From Gemmatimonadota bacterium (GTDB lineage: Bacteria > JAAXHH01), in contig VXRC01000004.1 of the NCBI GenBank assembly GCA_009838645.1, positions 1 through 64,000 of the forward strand: 64,000 bases of DNA. Direction: 5' to 3'. This document shows positions 4,283 to 15,291 of the stretch, piece after piece (the first letter of the stretch is position 1; each line of letters begins with the position of its first letter). Under the pieces are notes generated by a model that saw only the letters and a list, made by a program, of their open reading frames with translations, did not search any database and had not been told where the DNA came from. The position numbers and the translations under genes were made by a program.

Positions 4283-6211
4283 ATGTCCGAAGCACCTACC
4301 GCACCCACCGAAACCATGGAATTCAAGAGCGAGTTGCGGCAGATCCTTCACCTGATCACCCATTCGCTCTACTCCAACAAGGAAATCTTCCTCCGCGAAC
4401 TGATCAGCAACGCCAGCGACGCGATCAACAAGATCCGCTTCAATTCCATCAACAACAGCGACCTGCTCGACGGCGACACCGAGTGGAAGATCAAGCTGAT
4501 TGCAGACAAGGACAAGAACACGCTGACGGTTTCCGACAACGGCACGGGGATGTCCCGCGAAACCATTATTGATCAGCTGGGCACGATCGCGAAGTCCGGC
4601 ACCCGGGCCTTCCTGGAGACCCTGCGGCAGGCGGACGAAGCCAGCCGTCCCGAGTTGATCGGCCAGTTCGGCGTGGGTTTCTACTCGGCGTTCATGGTGG
4701 CCGACCGGGTGACGGTGGTCTCCCGCCTGGCGGGCGATCCGAAAGACCAGGGCGTCCGCTGGGTCTCCGCGGGAGAGGGCGAGTTCACCATCAAGTCGGT
4801 GGAGAAGGAGGCCCACGGGACCGACGTCACGCTCCATCTTAAGGAGGACGAGAAGGAGTTCCTGGAGGAATGGCGGCTGCGGCAGGTGGTCAAGGAGTTC
4901 TCCGATTTCATCGAGTACCCGGTCGTCATGGACGTGGAACGGCACGAACCCGTCGAGGGAGAGGACGACAAGACGGAGGCGGTGGTCCGGGAAGAGACGC
5001 TCAATTCCATGAAGGCCCTCTGGCTGCGTTCGAAGGACGAGATCGAAGAAGACGAGTACAACGCCTTCTACCGCCAGATCTCCCACGATTACGGCGATCC
5101 TGCGAAGGTGATCCACTACACCGCCGAGGGGCTGACGGAGTTCAAGGTGCTGCTCTTCATCCCGGCGAAGCGGCCCTTCGACATGATGTTCGGCGATCCC
5201 AAGGTAGGACCCAGGCTGTACGTGCAGCGGGTCCAGATCATGGAAAACTGCGAGGAGCTGCTGCCGCCCTACCTGCGCTTCATCAAGGGCGTGGTGGACT
5301 GCGCGGACCTGCCCCTCAACGTCTCCCGCGAGATCCTGCAGCAGAACCCCATCCTCGACCGCATCCGGAAGAACATCGTCAAGCGGATCTTCACGGTGCT
5401 GGAGGAGATGAAGAAGGACGAGTTCGACAAGTACGTGGAATTCTACCGGGAACTGGGCCTGATCCTCAAGGAGGGGATGGCGCAGGACTTCGAGAACCGG
5501 GACACCCTGACCTCTCTGGCCGTGTACGAGTCCATGAACACCGAGGCCGGGAAGTACATTTCCATGGATGAATACGTAGACCAGATGCCGCCCGACCAGG
5601 ATGAGATCTACTACCTGATCGGCGAGCACCGCGGCATGCTCGAGCGGACGCCGTACCTGGAGGTCTTCCGGGACCGCGGCTGGAACGTCCTCTTCATGAC
5701 GGACCCCATCGACGAATTCGTCATGTCGTCGGTGGACGAGTACCGCGAGAAGAAGTACAAGGCGGCGGACAAAGGCGACATTGCGGCGGACGAAACCGAT
5801 AAGGCCAAAGCGGAAGACGACGAGAAGACCTTCCAGGCCCTGATCGAGGCCCTGAAGGGCAAGATTCCGGAGGTGCAGGATATCCGGCTGTCCACGCGCC
5901 TCAAGGACAGCGCCTCCTGCCTGGTGGCCGACGAGGGCGCCATGAGCGCCCACATGGAACGGCTCATGCAGCGCATGGGCGAGGGCGGCGGCCAGACCTC
6001 CAAGCGCATCCTGGAACTCAACGCCGGACATCCCGTGGTCCAGGGCCTGCAGAAGCTCCACGACAGCGACGGCGAAGATGCACGCGTCGAATCCATCGGC
6101 CGCCTGCTGTACGAGCAGGCCGTGGTGGCCGAGGGGTCCAAGCTCGACGATCCCGTAGGCTTCGCGAGCCGGATCAACGACCTGCTGGTCAAGGAACTGA
6201 TCCGGATTTAG
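4283..6211 (+). CDS. htpG: Molecular chaperone HtpG (bacterial Hsp90)
   Basis: This 642-residue Hsp90 is a dimeric ATP-driven chaperone of the cytoplasm that remodels client proteins with DnaK. The N-terminal ATPase domain shows ELISNASDAINKIRF (catalytic Glu and nucleotide Asn), SDNGTGM, GQFGVGFYSAFMVAD and GTDVTLHL. The middle domain carries the conserved YVQRVQIMENCEELLPPYL and LPLNVSREILQQN segments, and the C-terminal dimerisation part follows after an acidic Lys/Asp/Glu-rich linker around residues 490-515. The length matches the bacterial family. AGGAGG lies 12 bases before the ATG. The gene is probably monocistronic from the consensus promoter at 4086, with a leader long enough to hold RNA structure. 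Confidence 0.97.
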   Translation: MSEAPTAPTETMEFKSELRQILHLITHSLYSNKEIFLRELISNASDAINKIRFNSINNSDLLDGDTEWKIKLIADKDKNTLTVSDNGTGMSRETIIDQLGTIAKSGTRAFLETLRQADEASRPELIGQFGVGFYSAFMVADRVTVVSRLAGDPKDQGVRWVSAGEGEFTIKSVEKEAHGTDVTLHLKEDEKEFLEEWRLRQVVKEFSDFIEYPVVMDVERHEPVEGEDDKTEAVVREETLNSMKALWLRSKDEIEEDEYNAFYRQISHDYGDPAKVIHYTAEGLTEFKVLLFIPAKRPFDMMFGDPKVGPRLYVQRVQIMENCEELLPPYLRFIKGVVDCADLPLNVSREILQQNPILDRIRKNIVKRIFTVLEEMKKDEFDKYVEFYRELGLILKEGMAQDFENRDTLTSLAVYESMNTEAGKYISMDEYVDQMPPDQDEIYYLIGEHRGMLERTPYLEVFRDRGWNVLFMTDPIDEFVMSSVDEYREKKYKAADKGDIAADETDKAKAEDDEKTFQALIEALKGKIPEVQDIRLSTRLKDSASCLVADEGAMSAHMERLMQRMGEGGGQTSKRILELNAGHPVVQGLQKLHDSDGEDARVESIGRLLYEQAVVAEGSKLDDPVGFASRINDLLVKELIRI

Positions 6212-6238
6212 CGCGGCACAACGAGACGACTGTACGCC

Positions 6239-7918
6239 ATGCGCACTCCCACCGTACTTGTATCGATCCTCTTGCTGGCCTCCTGCGGCGAAAGTGAGCG
6301 CGGCGGGGAACAGTCGGGGACCACCACGGAAGGCGGCCGCGTCAACTCGATCGGTGTGACGCTGCCCGACGACGCCGTGGACGCCTCCCGCCAGGTGCTC
6401 CGGTCCATGAGCCCCGAGCCGAAGAGCCTGGACCCCAGTATCGAGCCCTACGACACCGAGCAGACGATCCTGCCCTTCGAGGCCCTGTTGTTCAAGGACG
6501 AGCACTGGAACCCGATCCCGGGCGCCGCGCACAGCTGGGGCTCGGATGACGGGATAATCTGGACCTTCAACCTCAGGTCCGGGATGCGCTGGAGCGACGG
6601 GTCGCCGCTGACGGCCCACGACTTCGTGTATTCCTACCGCCGGATGCTCGACCCCGAATCCACCAACATCTACGCTTTCTTCTATTACGACATCAAGAAC
6701 GCCGAAGCGATCGTCAAGGGGGAGAACAAGGACCTCGGGTCCCTGGGCGTCCGGGCCGTGGACGATACGACCCTGGTCATCGAAACCGAAAAGCGGGCGC
6801 CCTACCTGCCCCATATCGTTTCTTTCGGCGACGCCATGCCGGTGCCGAAGCGGCTCGTGGACAAATACGGCCGCAAGTGGACCGAACCGCAGAACATCAT
6901 CACGAATTCCGGCTTCATGGTCACGGAGTGGGTCAACGGCAGCCACATGACGCTTGTTCCCAATCCCTACTACAACGGCCCCCACAAGCCCTTCCTGGAG
7001 AAGGTGATCCACCCTTTTCGCAACGCGGCCGCGGCCACCATCCTTCCTTACGAGAGCGACGAGGTCGACATGGAGAACGTGGACGTGAACGACCTGGAAC
7101 GCATCGAGCGTGATCCCGAACTGAAGAAAGATCTCGTGCGCTTTCACGGACTGAATACCTGGTATCTCTTCTTCAGGACGCAGCTGCCGCCCTTCGACGA
7201 CATTCGCGTCCGGGAAGCCTTCACGCGGGTGATGGACCGCGACAACATCTGCAACATCATCCTGCGGGGCGGGGCCGTGCCGGCCTATTCCATGATCCCA
7301 CCCGGCTTCAGGGAATTCGAGGGCGACACGCACGCCGCGGTGCAGGGATTCGATCCCGAACGGGCGCGGCAACTGATGCGCGAGGCCGGATATCCAGGTG
7401 GTCAGGGATTCCCCCGCCAGGAACTGTGGCTAAGGGCGCCTACCCCCTCCGACCGCCTGATCGGCGTGGCGATACAGAGCATGCTGAAAGAACATCTCGG
7501 CGTCGACGTGGACATCCGGACGGCCGACCTGCACACCTACATGGACCATCTGTACGAGTGGAACATGAACCTCGGGCTGATCGCCTTCGGCGCCGATTTC
7601 CTCGACCCCCGCAACATACTGGACATGATCTGGCACTCCCAGCCCCGGGGCCACGGCCGGCAGGACTGGCACAATCCCGACTTCGACCGCCTCGTGGATG
7701 CAGCCGCGGCCGAACTGAATCCGGAGATCAGGGAAAGTCTGTACCGTGAAGCCTCGGCCGTCCACGTGGCGGACTATCCCGGCGCGTTCCTCTATCACAA
7801 GATGGGTCTGCAGCTCCGGAAACCCTGGCTGAAGGGCTATGCCGTAAACGACGACGGCACCGTGGGTTCCTTCCGCTGGCATAAGTTATACATCGCCGAG
7901 GTGGAAGATGGGGAGTAG
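6239..7918 (+). CDS. ABC transporter substrate-binding lipoprotein, family 5 (OppA-like)
   Basis: This 559-residue solute-binding lipoprotein belongs to the peptide/nickel family 5. The N-terminus has a short hydrophobic run and a lipobox ending LLLASC, so it should be lipid-anchored in the periplasm after cleavage before Cys. Family features include RSMSPEPKSLDPSIEPYDTEQ, the WTFNLRSGMRWSDGSPLTAHDFVYSYRRM-type core (only part quoted: WSDGSPLTAHDFVYSYRRM), and RVREAFTRVMDRDNI. The likely ligand is an oligopeptide or murein peptide, but the binding pocket cannot be read from sequence. No permease or ATPase genes adjoin it, so it either docks on a transporter encoded elsewhere or is an orphan receptor. 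It overlaps the next gene by 11 bases, implying co-transcription with the phytase-like and cell-wall-sugar genes downstream. Confidence 0.9.
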   Translation: MRTPTVLVSILLLASCGESERGGEQSGTTTEGGRVNSIGVTLPDDAVDASRQVLRSMSPEPKSLDPSIEPYDTEQTILPFEALLFKDEHWNPIPGAAHSWGSDDGIIWTFNLRSGMRWSDGSPLTAHDFVYSYRRMLDPESTNIYAFFYYDIKNAEAIVKGENKDLGSLGVRAVDDTTLVIETEKRAPYLPHIVSFGDAMPVPKRLVDKYGRKWTEPQNIITNSGFMVTEWVNGSHMTLVPNPYYNGPHKPFLEKVIHPFRNAAAATILPYESDEVDMENVDVNDLERIERDPELKKDLVRFHGLNTWYLFFRTQLPPFDDIRVREAFTRVMDRDNICNIILRGGAVPAYSMIPPGFREFEGDTHAAVQGFDPERARQLMREAGYPGGQGFPRQELWLRAPTPSDRLIGVAIQSMLKEHLGVDVDIRTADLHTYMDHLYEWNMNLGLIAFGADFLDPRNILDMIWHSQPRGHGRQDWHNPDFDRLVDAAAAELNPEIRESLYREASAVHVADYPGAFLYHKMGLQLRKPWLKGYAVNDDGTVGSFRWHKLYIAEVEDGE

Positions 7919-8918
7919 GGATCTTTCCGGGAGTAAGCGGGGCCCGGCCGTCCTTCGTTTACCGGCCGCGCTACGCCGGCCGCTCGGATACCGTCTCCTG
8001 CCCGCGCCGCTCGTATTGCCCACCTGTCACTTGTTCATTACGCCGCTCGCCCTATGCTTTGCGGCCTTGCTTTGGATGCCCGGGTCGGCCGCAGCCCAGG
8101 AAAGCCCGGTCCTCCTCGAAGCGATCAGCGTCCTCCCCGTCGAGGGTCCCGAATCCAACCAGCCATCGGGACTCTTCGTCCATAACGACACCCTGTACAC
8201 CGTTTCCGACAAGCACGACGATACCATCTTCCGGATTGAACTCCGGGAGGATGTCGCGGTATTCGTTCCGCATATACGGTTCGAGGCGCCCAAACCCTTC
8301 GGGGTGTTCAGGCTGGACCTGGAGGGCATCACCCGCGATGACGACGGAAGCTTCTATCTCGCCAGCGAAGGGGCGTTCGCCATTCTGAAGGTCGACGCGG
8401 ACGGAAAGAAGGCATCCTGGGTCACCACGAGCCTCCGGAAAACAGGCGCATCGGCGGGGCTTTTCCAGACGCGCGGCGGATATCTCGAGGGCATCACGCT
8501 GATGGCCCGGGACCGGTTCCTGGTCACCGCGGAAAGGGAGCCCTGCGGCCTGATCGAAGTCGACATGGCCCCGGTGCAAAGGATCGTGGAGATCGCCAAT
8601 CATGGCGCAACGGACAGTTACACGGGCCTGCACCGGGAGGTCGAAAACGTATACATCCTTCAGAGAAGCACCGCGACCATCCGGAGGACCATCCGGTACC
8701 TGGACGTGGACAGTCCCTCAACGATCTGGTCCTTCGCCCATATCGTCAACGACCCGGAATACCTCTATCAGCACGAACAGTTTGGCGCGAAAACGGCGGA
8801 GGGGCTCGCCATGGACCGCGACCGGGTCTACGTCATCCTCGACAACAACAACGACGCGCGCCGGATGTACCCCACCGATCACAGACCCTTGCTCCTGATC
8901 ATGAAGCGGCCCGGGTGA
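7908..8918 (+). CDS. Secreted esterase-like/phytase-like beta-propeller protein
   Basis: This 336-residue exported protein resembles the 'esterase-like activity of phytase' family (PF13449 type), which adopts a beta-propeller. An unusually long basic N-region precedes the hydrophobic core LFITPLALCFAALLWM and an AAAQE cleavage-like site near residue 63. The diagnostic DLEGITRDDDGSFYLASEG segment (residues about 130-150) and the matching GYLEGITLM and TAEGLAMDRDRVYVILDNNNDARR segments are present. The catalytic role is uncertain; family members act on phosphate esters or are only structural. The ATG lies within the preceding gene's end, with GAGG upstream. A start nearer the hydrophobic core is possible. 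Confidence 0.75.
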   Translation: MGSRDLSGSKRGPAVLRLPAALRRPLGYRLLPAPLVLPTCHLFITPLALCFAALLWMPGSAAAQESPVLLEAISVLPVEGPESNQPSGLFVHNDTLYTVSDKHDDTIFRIELREDVAVFVPHIRFEAPKPFGVFRLDLEGITRDDDGSFYLASEGAFAILKVDADGKKASWVTTSLRKTGASAGLFQTRGGYLEGITLMARDRFLVTAEREPCGLIEVDMAPVQRIVEIANHGATDSYTGLHREVENVYILQRSTATIRRTIRYLDVDSPSTIWSFAHIVNDPEYLYQHEQFGAKTAEGLAMDRDRVYVILDNNNDARRMYPTDHRPLLLIMKRPG

Positions 8919-8925
8919 AGCGGCC

Positions 8926-10362
8926 ATGAATCGTGATGCCCAGGACAGGCTGGTACGCCTCTTCCGCCGTACGTTCGGCCGTGCGCCGTCGCGCATCGCC
9001 GCCCTAGGCGCGGACGGCTCGAGTCGGCAATACTTTCGGCTGGCGGACGGGGGACGGACGGTCATCGGGACGGCAAACGAAGACCTCCGGGAAAACGTCG
9101 CCTTCCTTACGCTGTCCCGCCACTTCCGCCGCCATGGCCTGCCGGTGCCCGAGATCTTCGCCGAGGACCTGGAACAGGGCGTCTATCTGCAGCAGGACCT
9201 GGGTGACGAGACGCTGTACGACCGGGTGGCCGCCACGCGAGCGGAGGAGGGCACTTTTTCGGAAGGGCCGGCCGCGATGTACCGGCGGGTGCTCGACGAC
9301 CTGCCCCGTTTCCAGGTCACCGCGGCAGCGGACCTGGACTTCTCGGTCTGTTACCCCAGGAGCCGGTTCGACGCGCAGTCCATCCGGTGGGACCTGAACT
9401 ACTTCAAGTATCACTTCTTGAAGCTCGTGCCGGTGGACTTCGACGAGCAGGCCCTCGAAAACGATTTCGAGCGGCTCACGGCGTTCCTCCTGGAAGCGGA
9501 TACCCATTTCTTCCTGTACCGTGACTTCCAGTCCCGCAACATCATGTGGCATGAGGGACGCCCGCATTACATCGACTACCAGGGCGGGCGGCAGGGCGCG
9601 CTTCAATACGACGTGGCGTCTCTTCTGCTGGATGCCAAGGCCGACATCCCGTGGGAGATCCGGGACGAACTCCTGGATCACTATGTCGAAGCGGCCGGCG
9701 AGTATGCCCCCCTTCGCCGGGATGCGTTCCTGGCGCACTATTACGGTTACGCCCTGGTCCGTCTCATGCAGGCGCTGGGCGCCTACGGGTACCGTGGCTT
9801 GTACGAAGGCAAGTCCCACTTCCTGACCAGCATCTCCCACGGCGTCCGCAACCTCGAGGGGCTGCTCGAGCGGGACGGCCCGCCGGTCGACCTGCCTGAG
9901 TTGAACCGTGCCTGGTCGCGCATCGTCGACGACCCGGCGCTTCGGAGAATGGGCGAGGTTTCCGGCGAAGGACTGACCGTCCACCTCTGGAGTTTTTCCT
10001 ATCACCTCGGTCTGCCCCGGGATCCGAGCGGAAACGGCGGCGGGTTCATCTTCGACTGCCGGATCGTGAAGAACCCCGGCCGTATACCGGAATACGCGGA
10101 TCTGACGGGAAAGGACGCGCCGGTGGCGGCCTTCCTGGACGAACTCGAGGAGGCACGGTCCTTCCTGGGGGATGCGCTGACCATGGTCGACCGGGCGGTC
10201 GAACACCACCTGCGTCGCGGGTTCACGGACCTGACCGTCGCCTTCGGGTGCACGGGCGGTCAGCACCGCTCGGTGTATTTCGCGGAACGGCTGGCGGCGC
10301 ACCTGAAGGAGCGTCCGGGCTTGAAGGTCCGGCTCAGGCACCGGGAGCAGGAGGATTCGTGA
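8926..10362 (+). CDS. AmgK-like sugar kinase fused to a RapZ C-terminal domain
   Basis: This 478-residue two-domain protein joins an aminoglycoside-phosphotransferase-fold kinase (about residues 20-330) to a RapZ C-terminal domain (about 345-475). The kinase shows YRDFQSRNIMWH at residue 198 onward (catalytic Asp and metal Asn) and HYIDYQGGRQGALQYDVASLL, the arrangement seen in AmgK, which phosphorylates the anomeric hydroxyl of MurNAc/GlcNAc. The C-domain has HLWSFSYHLGLP, FIFDCRIVKNPG and AFGCTGGQHRSVYFAERLA, matching the part of RapZ known to sense glucosamine-6-phosphate; the RapZ N-terminal ATPase with its Walker motif is absent. The stop overlaps the next gene's GTG (GTGA), so expression is coupled to the MurU-like enzyme. 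The substrate is inferred from this pairing and is not proven. Confidence 0.85.
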   Translation: MNRDAQDRLVRLFRRTFGRAPSRIAALGADGSSRQYFRLADGGRTVIGTANEDLRENVAFLTLSRHFRRHGLPVPEIFAEDLEQGVYLQQDLGDETLYDRVAATRAEEGTFSEGPAAMYRRVLDDLPRFQVTAAADLDFSVCYPRSRFDAQSIRWDLNYFKYHFLKLVPVDFDEQALENDFERLTAFLLEADTHFFLYRDFQSRNIMWHEGRPHYIDYQGGRQGALQYDVASLLLDAKADIPWEIRDELLDHYVEAAGEYAPLRRDAFLAHYYGYALVRLMQALGAYGYRGLYEGKSHFLTSISHGVRNLEGLLERDGPPVDLPELNRAWSRIVDDPALRRMGEVSGEGLTVHLWSFSYHLGLPRDPSGNGGGFIFDCRIVKNPGRIPEYADLTGKDAPVAAFLDELEEARSFLGDALTMVDRAVEHHLRRGFTDLTVAFGCTGGQHRSVYFAERLAAHLKERPGLKVRLRHREQEDS

Positions 10363-11174
10363 AGGCCATGATCCTTGCGGCGGGCCTGGGCACCCGGCTC
10401 CGGCCCCTCACCGACGCCCGGCCCAAAGCCCTTGTAGAGGTCGCCGGCCGGCCGATGCTTTACTGGGTGATCGCGCGGCTCGCCCGCCATGGTTTCAACG
10501 ACATCATCATCAATGCTCACCATTTCGCGGAACAGATCGAGGCCTTCGCGGCCGCGTACGATAGTCCCGGCGTTTCGCTGACCGTTTCCGTGGAGGAGGA
10601 GATCCTCGACACGGGCGGCGGGGTGCGCATGGCCGCGTGGTTCTTCCACCGCGAGGAGCCGTTCCTGGTGCACAACGTGGATGTGCTGACCGACCTGGAT
10701 CTGTCCGCGCTGATGACGGCCCACCGGGCATCGGAAGCCGGTTCGGCGTGTGGCGCTCGTTCGGCGCCGGGTGCCCACCGGGCATCGGAAGCCGGTTCGG
10801 CGAGTGGCGCCCTGGTCACCGTCGCCGTGAAGAAAAGGAAGAGTACGCGCCACCTGCTTTTCGACGAGGCGGGACGGCTGGGCGGCTGGCGTTCGGATAT
10901 CACGGGAGAGACGCGCACGGTCCGGCCGATGGAGGGTCCCGTCACCTCCCTGCCCTTCATGGGCGTCTACGTCATGTCGCTGGCGGCGTTGGGCAAGATG
11001 ACCGGTTCCGGTTCCTTTTCGATCATCGACTTCTTCCTGGATCTGGCGGGTACGGGCAGCCCAATTCAGGCCTTTCGGGCCGAAGAAGCCCGGTGGGCGG
11101 ATCTCGGAAGCGTGGACCGAATCGCGGCGGCGGAGCGGCTGTTCGGAAAGGACTGGTTCGCGGATTTCGGTTAG
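10359..11174 (+). CDS. MurU-like sugar-1-phosphate nucleotidyltransferase
   Basis: This 271-residue nucleotidyltransferase (GlmU/RmlA fold) would make an NDP-sugar from a sugar 1-phosphate. It shows the nucleotide-binding opening AMILAAGLGTRLRPLTDARPK, GRPMLYWVIARLARHG, and the metal-binding NVDVLTDLDL. Its coupling to an AmgK-like kinase suggests a MurU role, UDP-MurNAc formation in peptidoglycan-sugar recycling. The GTG at 10359 is favoured: it lies in a GTGA overlap with AGCAGGAGG upstream; the ATG at 10368 is the alternative. Compared with the family, a 54-base direct duplication inserts an Ala/Gly/Ser-rich segment (HRASEAGSACGARSAPGA and a second copy) at residues about 121-156, just after the metal-binding motif, where a short loop is normal. 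The reading frame stays open. Confidence 0.85.
   Translation: MKAMILAAGLGTRLRPLTDARPKALVEVAGRPMLYWVIARLARHGFNDIIINAHHFAEQIEAFAAAYDSPGVSLTVSVEEEILDTGGGVRMAAWFFHREEPFLVHNVDVLTDLDLSALMTAHRASEAGSACGARSAPGAHRASEAGSASGALVTVAVKKRKSTRHLLFDEAGRLGGWRSDITGETRTVRPMEGPVTSLPFMGVYVMSLAALGKMTGSGSFSIIDFFLDLAGTGSPIQAFRAEEARWADLGSVDRIAAAERLFGKDWFADFG
10719..10826 (+). repeat. 54-base in-frame direct duplication inside the MurU-like gene
   Basis: The sequence beginning gcccaccgggcatcggaagc at 10719 recurs at 10773, a period of 54 bases (18 codons). The first 29 bases or so are identical in both copies, and the later part is partly diverged. Confidence 0.85.
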
Positions 11175-11673: not shown

Positions 11674-11760
11674 GGGTCCGAGCCGCTCTTCGTGGGTCCG
11701 AGCCGCCCTTCGTGAGTCCGCGATGTTACACTTGGGTCCGCGCCACAATGAACGGGTCTG
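11674..11760 (+). repeat. Five GGGTCCG-like repeats with exact 20-base period
   Basis: The heptamer appears at 11674 (GGGTCCG), 11694 (GGGTCCG), 11714 (GAGTCCG), 11734 (GGGTCCG) and 11754 (GGGTCTG). The first two 20-base units are almost identical (gagccgctcttcgt versus gagccgcccttcgt after the heptamer); the others keep only the heptamer, so phase is conserved better than the filler. Confidence 0.85.
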
Positions 11761-11864
11761 ACGCCCCATCCCGTCGCTACCCGAAACGAGTCGAGTTGCG
11801 AGGAGCACGCGGCGCGGTTCCAATCTCCGGACGCCGGATATCCGTTATCAGTAAGGAAGGTACC

Positions 11865-13259
11865 ATGATTAGAAGCATGAATGGCAAGACCCCCAGGTTT
11901 CGGATATACGATCTCAGGAACTACAGGAAAATACCGCAGATCGACAGGCTCCCGGACGACCTGAAGTTCGAAATGGAAGTCGTGGCGCGGGTTCTGCCGT
12001 TCCGGACCAATTCCCACGTGGTGGAGCACCTGATCCAATGGGAGAATATCCCTGACGATCCCATGTTCCAGCTCACTTTCCCGCAGCGGGAAATGCTGTC
12101 GCCGGACCACTTCGACGAGGTGGCGGCCCTGGTGAAAAAAGAGGCGGGTGAAGCGGAAATGGAGCGGACCGTGAACCGGATCCGATGGGATCTGAACCCA
12201 CAGCCCGCGGGTCAACTCGAGCACAACGTCCCCAGGGAGGACAACGAGAAACTGGACGGCATGCAGCACAAGTACCGGGAAACGGTCCTGTTCTTCCCGT
12301 CCCAGGGCCAGACCTGCCACGCCTACTGTACCTTCTGCTTCCGCTGGCCCCAGTTCGTGGGCATCGATGAGCTGAAGTTCGCCAGCCGCGAGGTCGAAAG
12401 CCTCATCAGGTACCTCGAAGACAATCCCCAGGTCACCGACGTGCTTTTCACGGGCGGCGATCCCATGGTCATGCGGGCAAAGAACCTCAGCGTGTATATC
12501 GATGCGTTGCTGAAGGCGGATCTCCCTAATCTGCACACGATCCGGATCGGGACGAAATCGCTGGCCTACTGGCCTTACAAGTACCTCACCGACCCGGATG
12601 CGGACGACGTGCTGGCGTTGTTCGAACGGATCACCCGCGCCGGCAAGCACCTGGCGGTCATGGCCCATTGCAGCCATCCCGCCGAACTCCAGCCCGACGT
12701 GGTGTCAAAGGCGGTCAGCCGGATCCGCGGTACGGGAGCGAAGGTTTACACGCAGTCGCCCATCCTGAGGAACATCAACGACGATCCGGACACGTGGGCG
12801 ACCATGTGGCGCAGGCAGGTGGACCTGGGGATGGTGCCGTACTACATGTTCATGGTGCGGGACACCGGCGTGCAGCACTTCTTCGCCGTGCCGATGGTAC
12901 GGGCCTGGGAGATCTTCCAGAACGCCTATCAGCAGGTAAGCGGGATCTGCCGAACCGTGCGCGGACCCAGCATGTCGGCCCATCCCGGCAAGGTCCACGT
13001 AATGGGCATCAGCGAGGTCCACGGGGAGAAGATCATCGCCCTCCGGTTCCTGCAGGGACGCAATCCCGACTGGGTCCTGCGGCCGTTTTTTGCCAGGTAC
13101 GACGAAGAAGCCATCTGGCTGGACGACCTCGAGCCGGCCTTCGGCGAAGAGACGTTCTTTTTCGAGAAGGAACTGGCGCAGTTGTGCGAGGAGGACCAGC
13201 CCTCCGGCCAGTGGGACGAAATGGAATCGCTGGTGCTGGAAGGCGTGGGGTGGAATTGA
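11865..13259 (+). CDS. KamA-family radical SAM protein (lysine 2,3-aminomutase-like)
   Basis: This 464-residue radical SAM enzyme has the cluster-binding CxxxCxxC at Cys151, Cys155 and Cys158 (CHAYCTFCF), followed by LFTGGDPMVM near residue 195, the glycine-rich segment that contacts S-adenosylmethionine. A PLP lysine is plausible at Lys376 in HPGKVHVMGI, since lysine 2,3-aminomutases use PLP together with the radical cluster. The sequence departs from true lysine aminomutase and EpmB around the cluster (FRWPQF instead of an Arg-rich stretch), so it is best placed with aminomutase-related proteins of unknown substrate. The ATG at 11865 follows AAGGAAGG at good spacing; an upstream in-frame start at 11712 falls inside the 20-base repeat array and is rejected. 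The gene converges on the hicB-like gene. Confidence 0.88.
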   Translation: MIRSMNGKTPRFRIYDLRNYRKIPQIDRLPDDLKFEMEVVARVLPFRTNSHVVEHLIQWENIPDDPMFQLTFPQREMLSPDHFDEVAALVKKEAGEAEMERTVNRIRWDLNPQPAGQLEHNVPREDNEKLDGMQHKYRETVLFFPSQGQTCHAYCTFCFRWPQFVGIDELKFASREVESLIRYLEDNPQVTDVLFTGGDPMVMRAKNLSVYIDALLKADLPNLHTIRIGTKSLAYWPYKYLTDPDADDVLALFERITRAGKHLAVMAHCSHPAELQPDVVSKAVSRIRGTGAKVYTQSPILRNINDDPDTWATMWRRQVDLGMVPYYMFMVRDTGVQHFFAVPMVRAWEIFQNAYQQVSGICRTVRGPSMSAHPGKVHVMGISEVHGEKIIALRFLQGRNPDWVLRPFFARYDEEAIWLDDLEPAFGEETFFFEKELAQLCEEDQPSGQWDEMESLVLEGVGWN

Positions 13260-13830: not shown

Positions 13831-15291
13831 CTAATCCCCCAACCCCGCATGCCGGCAGACGATTTCCACGGCCTTGACCAGGGTCTTCGCGCCGCGCACC
13901 GCGTATTCCTCGATCAGGTTGCCCTCCTGGTCTAACGTACCCAGGCCGGGCCCGAGGAACATCTTCCCACTGTAGATCGTGGCGGGTTCGACGCCCATGT
14001 GCTCCTGGGCGAGCACGATGGGGTTGGTATTGGCCCACAGGTCTTCGAGGTTGAAGATCGGGATGCCGAAGGCGCCGTCCTTCCACGTGCGTTCGTAGTT
14101 GAGCTCGGTGCCGCCCAACTGGTAGGTCTTCGTGAAGATCAGGTCGTCGCGGAAGCGCGCGGGCTCCATCTCCGCGAATTCCTCCACGATGATTTCGTGG
14201 AACCGGTCTATGGGGTCCGTGACCAGTCGGGGCCGGTCGCGCAGGACCTTCAGGTAGGCGGTCAGGCCCACCAGGGTGTCCCGGCCCGGATCGCTGAAGG
14301 TGTAGACCGCCTTTCCGTGGGAGGACAGTTCGCCGTAGCGCTGACCGCCAAGGCCCATGCCCTTTCGAATCGGGTTGATGGTCTCCTCTTTTCCGATGAG
14401 CAGTCCCGATGCGGGCGCGCGGCCCGGCTTGTCCATGCTGTAAGTGATGATGTCGCAGCCGATGTCCCGCGGGTCCATGCCCACGATGGGAATCGAGCCC
14501 CCTGTGTCGACGATGTATGGGACGTCGTAATCCCGGGCCACGTCGGCCAGTTCCTTAAGGAGGATGGGCGCGCCATTCTCGTCCTGCGCACCGAGCCCGT
14601 AGCTGGGGGTGTCGTATCCCACCGTGGCGATGCCCGTGAGCAGCGAAGCGTTTCGCTTGGCGGCTTTCTTCACGTTTTCGATGGTGCCGTCCACGTCGAC
14701 GGAGGTGAGCAGCGACGTGGGATTGTACCGGATCCCGTGGGGATCGTACTTCGCACCGGCCATGCGGACGTAGAGCGTCTCGAGGTTCGCGAGGCTCTTG
14801 TTCTCGATGCCCAGTTCGCCGCCGGCGATGGTCCGGTCCACGAGGAGGTTCTTGTACCGCGGCGGGAAGGCCCGTCCGTATCCGCCGATCCATTCGTAGT
14901 CTTCCCCGTAGGGCATGATCAGGCGGCCGCGGTAGATGTCGCCGTGGCGCATGGAGGGCGGCGCGCACAGGGTCTCGAGCGTGAGGCGCAGCAGCGCTTC
15001 GCAGGTATTGGCGGCTACTGCGTCGTACTCGTCGCCGTAGACGTCCTTGACGACTTCACGGAGTTCGTCTTCGATCACCCGGACCGGGAAGGTCTTGCCG
15101 CCCCGGTTGGCTTCCACGATCGCGTCGAGTACGTAGTCGGGCAGGTTGCCCGGCCTGGCCGAGCTGCCAGCGTACAGGCCGATGTCCTGCTTCAGCTTCA
15201 GCGTGCCGATTTCCTCACCGTATCGTCGTGCCTCCTCGACGATACCGGGAAAGCTGTCGTAGATCGACTGGTACCACTGGTACTTGTACAT
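13831..15291 (-). CDS. PLP-dependent fold-type I enzyme, function unassigned
   Basis: This 486-residue protein looks like a fold-type I PLP enzyme. YIVDTGGSIPIVGMD fits the cofactor-ring Asp region, and ITYSMDKPGRAPASGLLIG supplies a candidate Schiff-base lysine at residue 288. The N-terminal half (YAGSSARPGNLPDYVLDAI; AANTCEALLRLTLETL) resembles SelA/SepSecS-like or aromatic lyase-like enzymes more than ordinary transaminases, but I do not recognise the exact family. It is the last gene of a minus-strand run with a class V aminotransferase, a class I/II aminotransferase and an ornithine-cyclodeaminase-like protein, so amino-acid conversion is the safest inference. The next gene upstream ends 102 bases away, so it may be transcribed separately. 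Confidence 0.75.
   Translation of the reverse strand: MYKYQWYQSIYDSFPGIVEEARRYGEEIGTLKLKQDIGLYAGSSARPGNLPDYVLDAIVEANRGGKTFPVRVIEDELREVVKDVYGDEYDAVAANTCEALLRLTLETLCAPPSMRHGDIYRGRLIMPYGEDYEWIGGYGRAFPPRYKNLLVDRTIAGGELGIENKSLANLETLYVRMAGAKYDPHGIRYNPTSLLTSVDVDGTIENVKKAAKRNASLLTGIATVGYDTPSYGLGAQDENGAPILLKELADVARDYDVPYIVDTGGSIPIVGMDPRDIGCDIITYSMDKPGRAPASGLLIGKEETINPIRKGMGLGGQRYGELSSHGKAVYTFSDPGRDTLVGLTAYLKVLRDRPRLVTDPIDRFHEIIVEEFAEMEPARFRDDLIFTKTYQLGGTELNYERTWKDGAFGIPIFNLEDLWANTNPIVLAQEHMGVEPATIYSGKMFLGPGLGTLDQEGNLIEEYAVRGAKTLVKAVEIVCRHAGLGD

Follow-up and report, generated by a model that had tools for sequence, protein, structure and literature searches.

What does a RapZ-type C-terminal domain do when it is joined to a sugar kinase-like protein and placed directly in front of a nucleotidyltransferase gene? 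This question is raised by a locus in the 64,000-nucleotide stretch of DNA analyzed here (the window), in which a single gene (K-R) encodes an AmgK-like kinase part (K) followed by a RapZ_C-like domain (R), and is itself followed by a gene encoding a MurU-like enzyme (U) ( Table 1 ). The known roles of RapZ are those of an RNA adapter and of a sensor of glucosamine-6-phosphate (GlcN6P). Pfam assigns residues 25-262 of the K-R protein to the APH family (PF01636, 46 bits against a cut-off of 23) and residues 351-475 to RapZ_C (PF22740, 115 bits against a cut-off of 27), and no match to the N-terminal Walker A ATPase domain of RapZ was found in K-R, the N-terminal part being APH. These results confirm the original prediction of a kinase joined to a complete RapZ C-domain without the RapZ ATPase. 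Its two hallmark motifs, YRDFQSRN and GCTGGQHRS, are located at residues 198-205 and 441-449, respectively, and K-R is the sole PF22740 match in the 3.8-Mb genome. Relatives with 83-91% identity come from metagenome-assembled genomes named Latescibacterota or Gemmatimonadetes and, by these names, the source genome is Candidatus Latescibacterota; an association of the organism with sponges is a reading of isolate names only.

Table 1. Location and supporting evidence of the features of the K-R-U locus and of its upstream neighbors (positions in the window).
Feature	Position	Strand	Basis
OppA-like solute-binding lipoprotein, neighbor outside the module	6239..7918	+	PF00496, 269 bits
Phytase-like/SdiA-regulated-like protein, neighbor outside the module	7908..8918	+	Pfam; synteny within the genus only
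Fusion gene K-R, 478 aa, AmgK-like phosphotransferase part and RapZ C-terminal domain	8926..10362	+	ATG ORF, Pfam, NCBIfam, full-length relatives
Kinase part K, aa 1-345, APH fold, AmgK-like	8926..9960	+	PF01636, 46 bits; AmgK models; PDB 3csv
Kinase catalytic loop RDFQSRN, aa 199-205 (Asp200, Asn205)	9520..9540	+	Invariance in 13 diverse fusions
Metal-binding IDYQ, aa 216-219 (Asp217)	9571..9582	+	I216 and D217 invariant in 13 fusions
RapZ_C-like domain R, aa 350-478	9973..10359	+	PF22740, 115 bits; PDB 5o5s
Subfamily-specific Gly-rich insert and strand DPSGNGGGFIFDCR, aa 366-379	10021..10062	+	Alignment signature
Ligand loop CTGGQHRS, aa 442-449, C-X5-R-S	10249..10272	+	Alignment; pocket residues per PMC5737377
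MurU-like sugar-1-phosphate nucleotidyltransferase U, 271 aa	10359..11174	+	GTG start, Pfam, MurU model, PDB 4y7t
Repeat insert in U, HRASEAGSA..GA twice, ~30 aa	10720..10812	+	Alignment

The best kinase models for K are those of NCBIfam for AmgK (69.8 and 60.8 bits, far under the equivalog cut-offs of 500 and 550 bits, respectively), and its top PDB match is 3csv (E 4e-23). AmgK is also the main kinase model in all 13 fusion proteins scanned, the other kinase-type matches being three in number, weak and limited to one member each. Residues R199, D200, F201, Q202, R204 and N205 are invariant in an alignment of 13 diverse fusions, and K carries both the catalytic Asp/Asn loop and the metal-binding Asp that characterize AmgK within the APH fold (D200, N205 and D217). 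The U gene starts at a GTG (10359) that overlaps the TGA stop codon of K-R (10360-10362), exactly the GTGA overlap reported at the outset; a 308-aa ORF starting at 10248 is only the longest frame. The best NCBIfam model for U, top of 32 families, is MurU (117.8 bits, below the equivalog cut-off of 250 bits), as it is for 10/10 partner nucleotidyltransferases, and the top PDB match is the MurU structure 4y7t (E 5e-23). U has the NTP_transferase fold with a GLGTRLRPLT..PK signature, and the U proteins of the module show, in the alignment, HNVD where NGD is usual. The repeat insert of U is lineage-specific, being shorter in one locus of the genus (L002) and absent from other relatives. Judged by these scores, both below the curated cut-offs, K is AmgK-like and U is MurU-like rather than members of the respective families. 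K is probably a kinase of cell-wall-sugar recycling. Adjacency of U to the AmgK-like kinase gene is conserved across families.

A survey of the spread of the fusion and of its gene neighbors revealed that K-R recurs widely, usually in the order K-R-U. The fusion is present in 15 of the 16 genomes of the phylum searched, the exception being an 83% complete genome, and a protein search over 191 genomes recovered further full-length fusions in distant families as well as, in some genomes, the kinase and RapZ_C encoded by separate neighboring genes. Full-length fusions with 39-43% identity occur in Bacteroides finegoldii, Phocaeicola massiliensis, Parabacteroides distasonis and a Prevotella (from a plasmid collection), and no relatives of K-R were found among viral contigs. 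An assembly error as the source of K-R is ruled out by its recurrence in the phylum and in Bacteroidota. The K-R architecture is common and simply mislabelled, since two of these Bacteroidales fusions are annotated as 'RNase adapter RapZ' and have a 'nucleotidyltransferase family protein' directly after them. The RefSeq name on the Bacteroides and Parabacteroides fusions (L055:9992-11422 and L056:9992-11422) hides a probable sugar kinase. No paper describing a K-R fusion was found in a literature search that covered few subscription papers.

In the flanks read, the same-strand order K-R-U prevails in most families. K and R are fused in families f1, f2, f161, f101, f241, f249, f11, f33 and f199 and in Bacteroidales, and in one genome of f102, while G060, G114, G252, G335 and G348 encode K, R and U separately. 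In G022, K lies upstream of a gene in which R makes up the N-terminal part and U the remainder; an R-U fusion protein of 382 aa is encoded at L065:8237-9385, the kinase being a separate upstream gene. U is not adjacent to K/R in G013, G113 and G379 and was not detected in the Prevotella flank, and the contig of G251 ends soon after the fusion. Two f84 genomes (G096 and G237) have an R gene on its own, at a distance from both K and U; solo module-type RapZ_C proteins of 128-129 aa are encoded next to DUF1015 (L131:6228-6614) and next to an Mrp/NUBPL-type ATPase (L132:6039-6428). K-U pairs without R are present in G162 and, as one open frame, in G040; a MurU-like and an AmgK-like part share one frame, in the order U-K and without RapZ_C, at L136:5659-7440 in reverse-strand coordinates (forward ~5712-7319). 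The architecture labels require at least eight changes on the R tree, and the kinase tree shows three label changes with long branches meeting, a single and a repeated joining of R not being cleanly separated.

Judged from gene architecture, R is a third component of a salvage module and not only a kinase regulator, because it is found fused to K, as a separate gene, or fused to U. Counting against a module are the AmgK and MurU scores far below the cut-offs, the solo R domains and the non-adjacent U genes. The location of R between K and U, together with the K and U parts that share one frame without R in G040, would also suit a scaffold, in which an R dimer joins K and U and channels the labile sugar-1-phosphate, the ligand pocket being vestigial, and the RapZ C-terminal domain (CTD) does dimerize on its own (PMC5737377). 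Such a role is unlikely, however, given that solo R domains exist without K or U neighbors and that the T, G, H and R residues of the pocket are strictly conserved, unlike those of a vestigial pocket.

Upstream of K-R lie the genes for HtpG, for the OppA-like lipoprotein and for the phytase-like protein; they are syntenic in the loci of the genus (L002-L009), and none of the three turned up in the flanking regions that were read beyond it. The OppA-like lipoprotein, which had been proposed to feed murein peptides into the same process, was rejected as a part of the module because this synteny is genus-only, and a general role for it is not supported, its conservation beside K-R being confined to the genus. 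Muropeptide import by family-5 binding proteins is known from elsewhere (PMC9790009), so the feeding idea is not absurd, yet nothing ties the lipoprotein to the module. Two other genes of the window were also inspected: a KamA-family radical SAM protein of 515 aa with a provisional start (11712-13259; TIGR00238, 119 bits, below the 199-bit cut-off), and, on the reverse strand (13831-15291), a 486-aa protein with no Pfam match and weak SelA-like/SepCysS-like PLP-enzyme matches, which adjoins a cysteine-desulfurase-like gene.

The top PDB match for R is the CTD of Escherichia coli RapZ (5o5s, E 2e-18). A GGG[FY]xFDCR signature occurs in 26 of 27 module-type R domains (the remaining one reads GEGFVFDCR) and in none of 21 canonical RapZ proteins, the fuller insert pattern common to module-type R being D..G.GGG[FY]xFDCR. 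Also, module-type R domains mostly have NPG[RK] at the position of NPH190 of E. coli, and in a tree they split from the 21 canonical RapZ proteins at a 100/100 branch. A module-R profile run over 384 genomes matched 187 of them, each with exactly one RapZ_C match, and its scores are bimodal (157-206 bits in 34 genomes, at most 116 bits in 153 genomes). No co-occurrence of module-type and canonical RapZ_C was found among the 187 matching genomes (384 surveyed); about eight overlaps would be expected by chance from 19 module-type and 153 canonical occurrences among some 368 genomes outside the order, a figure that is inflated by shared ancestry and describes a pattern rather than a test. On this sequence evidence, R belongs to a distinct and new RapZ_C subfamily.

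The RNA-binding residues of RapZ, K270, K281, R282 and K283 (PMC5737377, PMC7073468), are not kept as a set in the alignment of module-type R domains, and the R domain of the window has L, D, S and a gap, respectively, at the equivalent positions. RNA-based control via R was rejected, as the RNA-binding residues are absent, in agreement with the original prediction of a control differing from the small-RNA-based one exerted by RapZ in E. coli. RapZ-type domains thus probably also have a wall-recycling job unrelated to small RNAs.

The ligand pocket presents a different picture of conservation. In E. coli, the pocket of the RapZ CTD is formed by His190, Thr248, Gly249, His252 and Arg253 (PMC5737377), and the loop CTGGQHRS of R holds the equivalents of T248, G249, H252 and R253, which are invariant in the 17 module-type R domains aligned, where the loop takes the general form C-T-G-G-x-H-R-S. 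The position of His190 is Gly in R; it is also variable among canonical RapZ proteins, and its loss was dropped as an argument against ligand binding. Since the E. coli CTD alone binds GlcN6P with a KD of ~10 nM (PMC7073468), R could be a non-catalytic sensor, in which a phosphosugar or nucleotide sugar held in the pocket (MurNAc-6-phosphate, GlcNAc-6-phosphate, GlcN6P or UDP-GlcNAc) switches K and/or U on or off, which is the idea of the original prediction with the ligand left open. A sensor would tolerate a natural fusion that lacks the loop Cys and keeps the phosphate-binding residues, as found in G251. However, R also occurs detached in the same operon position or fused to U, and so is not specifically a kinase gate, and GlcN6P has no recognized source in the genus; a purely sensory R is possible, though doubtful.

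The form of the loop, C-X5-R-S, may open a catalytic reading of R as well. Khan and Görke have likened the RapZ pocket to the loop of Cys-dependent tyrosine phosphatases and raised the hydrolysis of the ligand (PMC7199280), and this likeness is already known and not new here. When the module-R profile was compared with the PDB, the best non-RapZ match was the low-molecular-weight phosphatase (LMW-PTP) YwlE, at a non-significant E of 0.12-0.36, aligned at the C-X5-R-S loop over 38 columns. In R, C-X5-R-[ST] falls between a strand and a helix, as taken from the secondary structure of a low-confidence model: AlphaFold2 pLDDT values (52 for the fusion, with 8 close relatives, and 63 for R alone) are too weak, and a Foldseek search with the R model (pLDDT 63) gave no meaningful match, not even to RapZ, and thus lends no structural support to a phosphatase fold. 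The loop Cys is present in 27 of 28 module-type R domains; in the G251 fusion (L126:5153-6628) the sequence is GGTGGQHRS, with Gly for Cys and the other loop residues kept. No published phosphatase activity was found for canonical RapZ, which has the same loop.

The gene content of related genomes bears on both the pathway and the ligand. All eight genomes of the order that were tested encode AnmK, and no MurQ was detected in the nine examined for it, the matches being fragments that score no higher than 37 bits (cut-off 302 bits); MurA is present. Bacteria without MurQ use an anabolic route that requires a MurNAc-6-phosphate phosphatase before AmgK (Borisova et al. 2017, PMC5371407), and the AnmK+/MurQ- signature therefore calls for such a phosphatase. 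This signature, along with the leading AmgK and MurU models, supports the AmgK/MurU pathway context proposed originally. An alternative is that the product of the module is a different UDP- or GDP-activated sugar, serving as a glycan precursor, rather than UDP-MurNAc or UDP-GlcNAc, as could be suggested by the family scores of K and U below the curated cut-offs, by the unusual HNVD of the module U, and by the overlap of the G113 fusion with an ABC transporter gene. This is improbable, in that every member tested scores best with the AmgK and MurU models and the AnmK+/MurQ- content fits a wall-recycling route in the order. Also, AmgK and MurU of T. forsythia, a member of the same family as the K-R-carrying Parabacteroides, work in E. 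coli, letting it incorporate MurNAc probes (PMC13041923); having neither MurA nor MurB, T. forsythia depends on the AmgK/MurU route (PMC7670621). If its AmgK is fused as in K-R, the C1-kinase activity of a K-R protein would already have been shown.

No convincing GlmS match was obtained in 5/5 genomes of the genus (G000, G002, G003, G005 and G007), where the matches are partial (residues 1-222, up to 112 bits against a cut-off of 418 bits) and likely represent PurF-type amidotransferases; GlmS is present in two genomes of the same order (G013 and G014) and in 14/14 controls. Neither NagA (fragments of at most 31 bits) nor NagB had a clear match in 6/6 genomes of the genus, the 71-74-bit NagB match, in a frame of at least 620 aa, being taken as a 6-phosphogluconolactonase-like protein. 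The GlmM search was uninformative, its scores being weak even in relatives with GlmS. Most of the tested genomes lack the acetyltransferase domain of GlmU, so its absence is not genus-specific; in these genomes GlmU is only the N-terminal uridylyltransferase half, and acetyl transfer would therefore be carried out by another protein. Amino-sugar auxotrophy of the genus is possible, given the missing clear GlmS, NagA and NagB. Because of these same absences, GlcN6P has no clear source in the genus, barring some further route, and since MurNAc-6-phosphate is expected from AnmK, the latter appears the likelier ligand of R in this genus. The gating of the kinase by GlcN6P through R, as originally written, does not hold up well against this gene content, nor against R being a separate subfamily that is detachable or MurU-fused, and it gives way to the broader claim that a distinct RapZ_C subfamily acts as third member of a module for wall-sugar salvage.

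From the observed architecture, gene order, subfamily of R, absence of the RNA-binding residues and AnmK+/MurQ-/GlmS- content, we infer the substrates, ligand and catalysis of this module as follows. On balance, the locus would rather be a three-component module for UDP-amino-sugar salvage, composed of K, U and R, the last as the component that binds a 6-phosphorylated amino sugar. K would phosphorylate MurNAc, and probably GlcNAc too, at C1, and U would convert the sugar-1-phosphate into the UDP-sugar. R would bind the 6-phosphorylated amino sugar in its C-X5-R-S pocket, the ligand here being presumably MurNAc-6-phosphate from AnmK and not GlcN6P from GlmS, and could dephosphorylate it to free MurNAc for the kinase to which it is fused. 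Enzyme fusions often join consecutive steps. Dephosphorylation of the ligand is, tentatively, the single most likely action of R, followed closely by a non-catalytic role in which the bound ligand gates K and/or U, which is conceivable but uncertain. It is likewise possible but doubtful that R acts on amino-sugar-6-phosphates as a Cys-dependent phosphatase, taking the place of MupP without being of the HAD type; the Gly for Cys in G251 and the lack of AnmK in three module genomes (G045, G022 and G060) count against a phosphatase. If R is one, it would lie between AnmK and AmgK and therefore complete the pathway, K-R-U covering the whole route from MurNAc-6-phosphate to UDP-MurNAc, and an ancestral phosphatase would be the origin of the sensing by RapZ, or be retained in it.

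The analysis reveals a second RapZ_C clade, distinct from the first, within a probable wall-sugar salvage module of many bacteria, gut Bacteroides included. R is a candidate for the MurNAc-6-phosphate phosphatase step outside Proteobacteria, and it allows a direct test of the proposal (PMC7199280) that RapZ-type domains hydrolyze their sugar phosphate in the C-X5-R-S pocket. In addition, GlmS has apparently been lost in the genus, which suggests a dependence of these symbionts on amino-sugar salvage, and the K-R-U operon may therefore be essential to them.

Among known systems, the locus resembles the Pseudomonas-type recycling pathway (AnmK, MupP, AmgK, MurU) in having adjacent genes for a kinase and a MurU-like enzyme in an AnmK+, MurQ- background, and differs from it in the RapZ_C-like domain that lies, fused or separate, between K and U, and in its distant sequences. 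With RapZ of E. coli and YvcJ of B. subtilis, R shares the complete C-domain, the T248/G249/H252/R253 pocket and the C-X5-R-S loop; unlike them, K-R has no N-terminal ATPase and no K270/K281/R282/K283 and carries the Gly-rich insert, while R has Gly at H190 and forms a separate clade. The succession of strand, C-X5-R-S loop and helix is shared with the LMW-PTP YwlE (non-significant profile match, E 0.12 over 38 columns). The closest counterparts are the AmgK-RapZ_C fusions of Bacteroidales, which have the same full-length architecture, adjoin a nucleotidyltransferase in three of the four cases read, and differ from the K-R of the window in sequence, at 39-43% identity.
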